Source of the DNA: Geobacter sp.
GTDB lineage: Bacteria; Desulfobacterota; Desulfuromonadia; Geobacterales; Geobacteraceae
DNA: 64,000 nucleotides
NCBI GenBank assembly: GCA_003574885.1
Contig: PJFC01000005.1
Location: 62,001 to 126,000 of the forward strand
Direction of reading: 5' to 3'
A program made the position numbers and the translations under genes. This document shows, piece after piece, positions 20,214 to 24,237 of this stretch. The notes beneath the pieces are model-generated. The model was not told the origin of the DNA and searched no databases. It saw only the letters and a list, made by a program, of their open reading frames with translations. Position 1 is the stretch's first letter; each line of letters starts with the position of its first letter.

Positions 20214-20244
20214 GACAGGTGATGTATTCATAGGTGCTTTTTCC

Positions 20245-20280
20245 AAATGAAAAGGGGGCGTTTCCGCCCCCTTTTCATTT
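20245..20280. terminator. Bidirectional terminator, 16-bp perfect stem
   Basis: AAATGAAAAGGGGGCG (20245-20260) pairs perfectly with 20265-20280 around a TTTC loop. It ends both the plus-strand lipoprotein gene and the minus-strand zinc-ribbon gene, whose last codons lie in one arm. Confidence 0.93.
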
Positions 20281-20421
20281 GCTGCAATCGCATTCTCCCA
20301 TGTCGCCGCTGGCAAAAGATAACTTTTTGCCACACTTCTGGCACCGCCAGAAGAGGCCCCCTCAGCCGGGAAGTAGGAGCATTTTCCCCTCGCACTCGGG
20401 GCAGGTTTTCTCCGTTTCCAT
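20275..20421 (-). CDS. Small zinc-ribbon protein with in-frame TGA (selenoprotein or nonsense-interrupted)
   Basis: From ATG at 20421, with a strong GGAGGA site 6 nt upstream, the frame reads 19 codons beginning METEKTCPEC, then TGA at 20364-20362, then 28 more codons including LFWRCQKCGKK before the final TGA. CPEC and CQKC together form a zinc ribbon split by the TGA. Eight nt after that TGA an 8-bp perfect hairpin with a GGT loop occurs. Either a SECIS-directed selenocysteine, a recent nonsense mutation, or a sequencing error. Lies downstream of the fumarylacetoacetate-hydrolase-family gene. Confidence 0.55.
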
Positions 20422-20497
20422 GATCATCCTCCAAGAAGTAGTATGGTAAAACTGTAATCCGGAGCGAGGTAAGATGTCAATAATATAAATATAGCTA

Positions 20498-21154
20498 TTA
20501 TTTGACCGTTACCTTGAGAGAACCGATTCCACTGATTTCGGCACACACCCGGTCGCCCTGAACAAGCGGGCCGACTCCGGCCGGTGTGCCGGTTAGAATG
20601 ATGTCGCCAGGTTCGAGGGTGAAAATGGTCGAGATATGGCTGACGATTTGGGTGACGGAGTGGATCATCAGCGAGGTGCTGCCATCCTGCCGCACGTTAC
20701 CGTTAACGGTCAGCCTGATTTGCAACTGTTGGGGGTCGCCGATCGTGCCGGCAGGGACAAAGTCTGACAGGGGACACGCAGTATCGAACCCTTTGGCGAT
20801 CTCCCACGGGAGCCCCTTTTTTTTCAGTTCGTCCTGGACGTCCCGCAAAGTCAGGTCAATGGCGACGCCATAGCCGGCCAGATGGGAAAGTGTCTGGTCA
20901 ACGGGGATGTTCTTGCCGCCGGTCCCGATGAGGAGTGCCAGTTCCGCCTCGTGGTGACAGTTCTTCGAATAGGGAGGAATGACTATCTCACCACCGTCAG
21001 CTATGACTGAAGTGGCCGGTTTCATGAAAATAACGGGCGCAGCAGGCGTCTCGTTCCCCAATTCTTTTATATGATCAACATAGTTGCGACCGATGCAGAG
21101 AATTTTGCCGATGGGGAATTCTTTGCCGACGGTGGGGATACGGGCAGTTCTCAT
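20498..21154 (-). CDS. Fumarylacetoacetate hydrolase family protein
   Basis: A 218-aa protein of the FAH/YcgM fold that acts on 2-oxo or 1,3-diketone acids with Mg2+. ILCIGRNYVDHIKELGN, the HHEAELALLIG metal-binding segment (E-x-E type) and LTGTPAGVGPL are family signatures. GAAGGAG precedes the start. Members act as acylpyruvases, oxaloacetate tautomerases or decarboxylases; the substrate here cannot be chosen from sequence. Confidence 0.9.
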   Translation of the reverse strand: MRTARIPTVGKEFPIGKILCIGRNYVDHIKELGNETPAAPVIFMKPATSVIADGGEIVIPPYSKNCHHEAELALLIGTGGKNIPVDQTLSHLAGYGVAIDLTLRDVQDELKKKGLPWEIAKGFDTACPLSDFVPAGTIGDPQQLQIRLTVNGNVRQDGSTSLMIHSVTQIVSHISTIFTLEPGDIILTGTPAGVGPLVQGDRVCAEISGIGSLKVTVK

Positions 21155-21206: not shown

Positions 21207-22166
21207 TCACAGATTTCCCACCTTGGCGCATTCTCCCGTCAACCGGCACCCTTGCCACGTTCCTCGACGGCGCAGTTCGTTGACAATGGCGTACCACATC
21301 TGGTTGTTTTTCAGATCCCAGTTGGGAGCAACGCGGATTGCCAAGGGGGCCGAGCCGTAGAGCCGCTGGATGGCGATTTCTGCAGGGAGCCGTTCGAGAA
21401 AATCACAGACCGTTGTTACGTACTCAGCCAAGGTAAGCGGGGTAAAATCTCCACTGCGGTAAAGGTCTGCCAGACTGGTTCCTTCTACGGCATGGAGCTG
21501 GTGGATTTTGAGTGAGGTTACCGGTAGAGATGCTATCAAATCTGCTGTCCGGAGGAAGCCTTCCCTTGTTTCATCGGGGAACCCGTAGATGAGGTGGGTG
21601 CAGAGCTCTATGCCACGTCCAGCCACCCGGTCCACCGCCTGGAGATATTCTGCAAGCGTGTGGCCGCGGTTGATACGTGCCAGGATAGCATCGTCCATGG
21701 ATTGCAGACCGAGCTCAAGACAGACATAGTGATCTCTTGCCAGTTCTTCCAGGAGATCAATTGCTTCATCGCTCAGTGCGTCGGGTCTCGTGCCGACAGA
21801 GATGCCGACTACGTCAGGATGGCCGAGGGCACGGCTGAAGAGGTCACGGAGTTTTGCCGCTGGACCGTAGGTGTTAGTGTGTTTCTGAAAGTAGATGATG
21901 AATTTTTCGCTTCCGAGGCGGTGGCTGTGGTATGCCATCCCCTCGGCCATCTGTGTTTCCAGGGGGATGACCGGTTGGGTGGAGCCTGGAGAGAAGGAGC
22001 TGTTGTTACAGTAGATGCAGCCGCCCCTCCCCCTGCTCCCGTCGCGGTTCGGGCATGTAAAGTCGCCGTCCACGTTGACCTTGCTGACACGGCAGCCGAA
22101 ACGGCGGCGGAGCCAGGTGCCGTAGGAGTTGATCCGGAGCTCGGGATGAATGAGAGTGGCGGGCAT
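21207..22166 (-). CDS. Radical SAM protein, TIGR01212/YhcC family
   Basis: A 319-aa radical SAM enzyme whose cluster motif is the family-specific C-x11-C-x2-C spread (CPNRDG ... GGCIYC). DLIQxxxFQKHTNTYG-type sequence (IYFQKHTNTYGP) is another YhcC-family mark. The substrate is not established for the family. It starts 3 nt after thiE ends, so it is probably transcribed with the thi genes. Confidence 0.9.
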   Translation of the reverse strand: MPATLIHPELRINSYGTWLRRRFGCRVSKVNVDGDFTCPNRDGSRGRGGCIYCNNSSFSPGSTQPVIPLETQMAEGMAYHSHRLGSEKFIIYFQKHTNTYGPAAKLRDLFSRALGHPDVVGISVGTRPDALSDEAIDLLEELARDHYVCLELGLQSMDDAILARINRGHTLAEYLQAVDRVAGRGIELCTHLIYGFPDETREGFLRTADLIASLPVTSLKIHQLHAVEGTSLADLYRSGDFTPLTLAEYVTTVCDFLERLPAEIAIQRLYGSAPLAIRVAPNWDLKNNQMWYAIVNELRRRGTWQGCRLTGECAKVGNL

Positions 22167-23973: not shown

Positions 23974-23997
23974 AAAGAGTTGAGAAGGTCTTGTGGT

Positions 23998-24087
23998 CCG
24001 CTTCCCTACGCCGGCATTAACCGGATCAGGTTCAAAGGGTTGTCCGATCCTGTTCGGATGGGACTCTCAGCCGAAACACCCCCAGCG
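23998..24087 (-). promoter_or_regulatory. TPP riboswitch (THI element)
   Basis: The minus strand shows the two TPP aptamer signatures: CTGAGA after GGGGTG...CGG, and CTTTGAACCTGATC followed by GGTTAATGCCGGCGTAGGGA. It lies directly upstream of thiSGE and is followed by a terminator. TPP binding is expected to free the terminator and shut the operon. Confidence 0.95.
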
Positions 24088-24237
24088 AGATAGCGCCGAT
24101 ATGTGGTTGTCGAGCGTCGTGCAGAGTAGGTGCCCACGACTCCAATACGGTATGTAACCTAGCAATATGGCGTGATTATGTCAACTCTTTTGTTGCCTGA
24201 ACAGGTACTCTCTCACCGGCTGCCGTGGTAAGTTTTC

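Follow-up and report, generated by a model that had tools for sequence, protein, structure and literature searches.

A 48-residue zinc-ribbon-like protein of Geobacter-type bacteria with a predicted, SECIS-directed selenocysteine at a conserved in-frame TGA

In the window, the whole stretch of 64,000 nucleotides of Geobacter DNA analysed here, a gene of 48 codons very probably encodes a small protein in which selenocysteine (Sec) is inserted at codon 20 under the direction of a SECIS element. Because the TGA at this codon and the hairpin that follows it are unchanged in relatives across several families, the Geobacter-type protein almost certainly carries Sec, and the locus is, judging by the comparison with its homologues, a conserved selenoprotein gene, neither a pseudogene nor a sequencing error. 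In the mechanism that we propose, ribosomes would reach the UGA at codon 20, where the hairpin, its loop starting 17 nt downstream, would hold SelB with its Sec-tRNA for the insertion of selenocysteine; the second UGA of the frame would then end translation. The finding would add a conserved selenoprotein subfamily to the Geobacter-type bacteria.

The features of the locus are collected in Table 1. The translated minus-strand frame reads METEKTCPECEGKMLLLPG, then the in-frame TGA, then GGLFWRCQKCGKKLSFASGDMGECDCSK and the stop; its 48 residues hold six Cys and the Sec, with CPEC at residues 7–10, Sec at 20, CQKC at 27–30 and a CxC tail at 44–46. A first-pass annotation of this DNA, which did not give the strand of the gene, had cited a strong ribosome-binding site, the CPEC and CQKC motifs before and after the TGA, and a normal end in a shared terminator. 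Each of these is found again here: GGAGG lies 6 nt 5′ of the ATG, the motifs are at the residues given above, and the final stop lies inside the inverted repeat, which is common to the facing gene and was not among the outputs of a consensus terminator scan. The same triplet, UGA, is both Sec codon and final stop of this one short gene. The final stop is TGA in 15 of 53 homologous frames, and such a double use would be a natural test of SECIS specificity.

Table 1. Position and strand of the features discussed, numbered from the first letter of the window
Feature	Position	Strand	Basis or description
48-codon gene, predicted selenoprotein	20275..20421	minus	ATG at 20421, TGA stop at 20277..20275; translation and homologues
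In-frame TGA, predicted Sec codon 20	20362..20364	minus	TGA in 55/55 distinct homologous sequences
Predicted SECIS hairpin, RNA CUUCUGGC-GGU-GCCAGAAG, DNA CTTCTGGC-GGT-GCCAGAAG	20335..20353	minus	Folds and conservation
Ribosome-binding site TTGGAGGA	20427..20434	minus	Sequence
Sigma-70-like promoter match TTGACA-18-TACAGT	20451..20480	minus	10/12, consensus match only
Terminator-like inverted repeat, 38 nt	20244..20281		16-bp perfect stem, 6-nt loop
FAH-family hydrolase gene (PF01557; NCBIfam PRK10691)	20498..21154	minus	Directly upstream, conserved neighbour

The TGA is a constant feature of the homologues. Of 58 relatives searched, 30 gave a match, with an in-frame TGA in 29; in the thirtieth, G028, the TGA is present and the frame is broken just after it. 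Among 277 genomes of the class, 60 match, 56 of them strongly (E <= 8e-16) and with one TGA inside each strong match; the 56 belong to three families (f1, f3 and f4), and the other four are G028 and three weak matches without TGA. Since the queries carried Cys at the Sec position, a Cys version would have received a score no lower than these, and no Cys homologue inside the window subfamily was found in the class and phylum sets of genomes. The motif is carried by 83 of 202 loci, representing 55 distinct sequences, and all 55 have TGA at the Sec position; with a stricter flank pattern, applied to the first 102 loci, the count is 53 of 53. Either pattern prescribes some of the protein motif, with any residue allowed at the Sec position and any choice of codons. 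The same TGA is present in all 19 named loci (from Geomonas species, Citrifermentans bremense, Geomobilimonas luticola, Geobacter sp. AOG1 and others), and at L097 (AAAUGKFFWRC) and L096 (LPAUGTLFWRC) the flanking residues are changed while TGA and hairpin are the same. The G028 copy (L030, L098) has TGA and hairpin intact, with a one-base length difference after the TGA that breaks the frame, perhaps an assembly error (the genome is 84% complete) or decay; it was left out of the counts. Also uncounted were weak matches without TGA in G184, G130, G009 and at a second place in G027, which look like chance or other ribbons, and, from the phylum search, L079, L081 and L082, which are ribbons of another spacing and have no Sec there, as well as L078 and L080, which have the motif of the family NF041197 (see below) and match its model over the cut-off. 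A plasmid collection gave no match.

The predicted SECIS hairpin spans +9 to +27 after the TGA, and coordinates and folds agree with the perfect 8-bp stem and the GGT loop at +17 to +19 (20345..20343) that the first reading had described; according to that reading, the loop GGU lies close to its position in the E. coli fdhF SECIS. The minimum free energy (MFE) of the segment +7 to +29 is -11.6 kcal/mol, a modest value relative to shuffled sequences (z -2.12; 9 of 200 shuffles equally good). Perfect hairpins with 8 or more bp and the geometry of a bacterial SECIS follow 6 of the 1998 TGA triplets on both strands of the window, the codon-20 TGA included, so that the hairpin by itself is suggestive and not proof. 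At codon 20 a second hairpin also qualifies under the same geometry rule: TGGCAAAAAGTTATCTTTTGCCA, with 8 bp, on the minus strand at 20310–20332, directly 3′ of the SECIS. A similar hairpin was seen by eye in loci of the same genus only, and the second hairpin was for this reason not taken as part of the SECIS.

It is conservation, and not fold energy, that we regard as the decisive evidence for a SECIS. Bases +9 to +29 are identical in 55 of 55 distinct sequences, synonymous third positions included, and the only two exceptions within +7 to +29 are single changes at +7 and +8. The homologue check proposed with the first-pass annotation, in which codon 20 might have proved variable and the hairpin unconserved, thus returned one codon and one hairpin block throughout. 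Codons 4 to 9 after the TGA (TTC TGG CGG TGC CAG AAG, for Phe, Trp, Arg, Cys, Gln and Lys, five of which have synonyms) are each represented by one codon in 53 of 53 sequences; in the same set there is synonymous variation at Gly +1, +2 and +11 (three or four codons each) and at Cys codon 10 (two codons), as well as at Pro -2 and Gly -1 before the TGA. Synonymous change before and after the TGA indicates a single translated frame across it, and the fixity of codons 4 to 9 between neighbours that vary synonymously indicates that the hairpin is under constraint at the RNA level. On this comparison, the fixed-codon block has the character of an RNA element embedded in coding sequence, as is typical of a bacterial SECIS. 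At L087, a Leu-to-His change gives the stem two extra base pairs.

As given in the available text of PMC13188914, the bacterial SECIS model has a loop of 3–9 nt, a stem of 4–16 bp, G in the first two loop positions, a spacing of 16–37 nt and an MFE of -7.5 or less. The window element lies within all four constraints (loop GGU, 8 bp, 16 nt from UGA to loop, -11.6 kcal/mol) and is like the general model in its 3-nt loop starting GGU, its 8-bp stem and its spacing; it differs in that loop and spacing are at the shortest allowed, the stem is perfect, and the sequence is invariant besides the shape. The invariant block of 21 nt would make it a compact and exceptionally constrained SECIS. Two objections had been raised at first reading, the lack of a bulged U and the position of the TGA outside a CxxU motif. 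We give little weight to either: a bulge is not among the four constraints as stated in that text (PMC13188914), and the Sec of NF041197 is also outside CxxU (C-x9-U).

The machinery for Sec insertion is encoded in the genome of the window. The first-pass annotation had proposed a check for selABD; the genome has selA (616.7 bits), selB (369.2 bits, frame total) and selD (369.9 bits, with its own in-frame TGA), plus tRNA-Sec (74.7 bits). tRNA-Sec is over the cut-off in 53 of the 58 relatives, barely so in G020, and below it in G013, G016, G025, G031 and G033; four of these five are without the selenoprotein gene, and the fifth, G025, has the gene in a genome that is 84% complete. Of the 28 relatives without a match to the selenoprotein, 24 have tRNA-Sec over the cut-off, which indicates that users of Sec manage without the window protein.

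If the TGA were a real stop, the gene would encode a peptide of 19 residues and the hairpin would be a regulatory RNA element. The invariance of the hairpin alone would fit such an arrangement, and the gene itself ends in TGA, so that UGA also works as a stop here; however, the protein sequence stays conserved past the TGA while codons 10 and 11 vary synonymously, and the related family NF041197 has Cys-coding versions that run straight through. On the synonymous change and the protein conservation past the TGA we reject the peptide, to which we leave only a very small probability. Smaller still, to the point of being negligible, is that of a nonsense mutation or sequencing error, which the first-pass annotation had kept open, for which we found no support, and which is refuted by the conservation of the TGA in 55 of 55 sequences, from genomes of families f1, f3 and f4 and from the 19 named loci. 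The comparison supports Sec insertion by the identity of the TGA, the conservation of the putative SECIS, the machinery and the spacing in common with NF041197, and Sec in the protein itself is what we infer from it. The earlier suggestion that the whole frame is functional across the TGA is upheld by the conserved TGA and hairpin, the complete machinery and the occurrence of Sec and Cys at the same column in NF041197.

NF041197, the dual CXXC motif small (seleno)protein, which is listed twice in the available text of PMC13188914, as OS_HP3 (RxU) and as DW (GxU), is the best NCBIfam match of the window protein, with 23.5 bits vs a cut-off of 40 (25.1 bits for L097). All 29 aligned members of the window family (A1) match it at E <= 0.1, the best at E 5.3e-6. 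The NF041197 model matched 0 of the 58 relatives, in a genome search in which no control gave a match, and matches 80 of 297 phylum genomes, 63 of them over the cut-off; the 64 places over the cut-off comprise 47 with TGA and 17 without. Sequences were fetched for 70 of 104 listed places, over and under the cut-off, and the spacing holds in 68 of these 70, of which 50 have Sec and 18 have Cys at the aligned column; the other two (L173, L174) also have TGA. In hhalign, the window family aligns to a profile of 30 of the fetched sequences (A2) at 96.7% and E 3.6e-10, over 31 gap-free columns, the alignment ending at column 31 of 53. The two families share the gap-free arrangement C-x2-C-x9-U/C-x6-C-x2-C, the Sec column and a tiny size. 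NF041197 has both TGA and Cys versions, with interchange of Sec and Cys, whereas the window family has TGA only; the window family has PGUGG and LFWRCQKCG and not RTU-type motifs, and ends in a short CxC tail in place of the C-terminal part of NF041197 with its DR, the R of which is nearly invariant in A2. Because 23.5 bits is under the 40-bit cut-off and this C-terminal part is missing, we file the window family, on sequence grounds, as a new Sec-only "PGUGG" sister subfamily of NF041197 and not as a member. Strong window-family matches occur in the window's order only, among the 277 class and 297 phylum genomes, and flanks of about 1.5 kb at 30 NF041197 loci hold no homologue of the neighbours of the window gene. 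A further group related to NF041197, with a GRU motif (A3; L162–L172 and L175), is mostly under the NF041197 cut-off and is sometimes a second copy in a genome; its 12 aligned sequences comprise 11 with TGA and 1 with Cys. It aligns to NF041197 at 97.4% and to the window family weakly, at 8.3%, and is taken to be like the published protein DW (GxU).

Other ribbon families are more distant. NF049953 (ribbon_DG_selen, hypothetical protein DG, motif GUxG, in the available text of PMC13188914) resembles the window family in that its name marks a ribbon selenoprotein and its motif fits the GUGG of the window protein; it differs in its length of 172 positions and gives no match to the window protein at E <= 10. 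It shows that ribbon selenoproteins are a known kind and is a precedent for a ribbon protein that contains Sec. Searched in G000, G001, G002, G003 and G021, NF049953 gave matches in three of these five genomes, all under its cut-off, elsewhere and without TGA; one of these matches, L204, lies elsewhere in the window's own genome (G000, contig C10; 30.5 bits vs a cut-off of 130). With the Pfam zinc ribbons (TFIIB-type, L37ae-type and others) the window protein shares two CxxC knuckles on beta strands; unlike them it carries, in addition, a Sec at the turn between these knuckles, and it reaches none of their cut-offs (best Zn_ribbon_6, 17.6 bits vs 25).

In the literature searched, the peptide strings of the family are absent; a prior description is possible, the original OS_HP3 report and the 2025 Haft paper being outside its scope. 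The table of 119 selenoprotein families and subfamilies, in the available text of PMC13188914, holds nothing equated with the window family, and the 2006 selenoprotein lists for three Geobacter species name no such protein in the part available (PMC1794560). The table in the available text on deep-Sep has 13 and 0 as the last entries for Geobacter sulfurreducens PL, in our reading 13 selenoprotein genes already known and none new, and the authors state that filtering may remove selenoproteins that lack Cys homologues (PMC12013277). The window protein scores under the nearest curated cut-off, and, as no Cys version was found, methods that need a Cys form may skip this subfamily.

An AlphaFold2 model of the window protein has four beta strands and a mean pLDDT of 75.7, with values below 50 for the last nine residues. 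Foldseek against the PDB found nothing at E <= 0.001, the best match (E 0.19) being a chain of the human RNA polymerase III complex; by sequence, the best PDB match is RNA polymerase subunit P (E 0.0092). The four Cys of the two CxxC motifs are invariant in the 29 aligned sequences, as is the aromatic and basic segment LFWRCQKCG; two or more Cys are present in 51 of 53 tails, and CxC or CC in 49 of 53. On sequence and model, both metal binding and redox chemistry are predicted. Cys 7, 10, 27 and 30 of the two knuckles would together coordinate a single metal ion, probably of zinc or iron, with Sec20 placed at the PGUGG turn between the knuckles of a one-domain, zinc-ribbon-like protein; from there Sec20 may attack an oxidised or electrophilic substrate, with the flexible Cys-x-Cys tail resolving the product. 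The tails of L029 and L096, with fewer than two Cys (2 of 53), weaken this resolving step. Given Sec insertion, we put the chance of a small thiol/selenol redox protein of this kind at about even. Somewhat less probable, again given Sec insertion, is a metal-handling or structural protein with no redox turnover, in which a second ion, of a soft metal or metalloid, would be held by the selenolate and the CxC tail, or a partner protein or nucleic acid by the ribbon; the top fold matches, all non-significant, are ribbons of RNA polymerase subunits, and the invariance of LFWRCQKCG and the density of six Cys and one Sec in 48 residues also point this way, but known selenoproteins are mostly linked to redox roles, as stated in the available text of PMC13188914. 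The exchange of Sec and Cys in NF041197 fits the redox and the metal-handling views alike. With 48 residues, one Sec and a likely single metal site, the protein would be a tractable case for asking why selenium is kept without CxxU.

The conserved neighbour is the FAH-family hydrolase gene. In 48 of the 55 loci with enough flank, no more than 134 nt separate the end of the hydrolase match from the first Cys codon; one further locus has the match about 1 kb off, and in six none was found within the 1 to 1.5 kb examined (56 genomes; one locus, with 44 nt of flank, was left out of the count). A strong match to the FAH gene (E <= 1.6e-86) is also present in 16 of the 28 relatives without the selenoprotein, at 17 places; at these the motif is absent from the 500 nt downstream and the hairpin from the locus, so that no Cys substitute was found there. 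The hydrolase is thus often kept without the selenoprotein, and any functional tie would be optional for the hydrolase. We consider it rather unlikely, while worth stating, that the turn Sec outside CxxU/UxxC and the CxC tail form a minimal selenol redox switch, metal-bound and linked to the upstream FAH-family enzyme, for instance guarding or regulating it, in a family whose ancestor lost the Cys option and for which selenium became obligatory. Two genes upstream, at 21207–22166 on the minus strand, is a gene for the MnmL/YtqA tRNA modification radical SAM protein (TIGR01212, 315.8 bits). This radical SAM gene, thiE and thiG, farther upstream, are common to the family f1 loci with enough flank; thiE is also upstream in two f3 loci, and most f4 loci had too little flank to judge. 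A TPP riboswitch (67.5 bits) is located at 23986–24093 on the minus strand, followed downstream by genes whose sequences suggest thiS, thiG and thiE.
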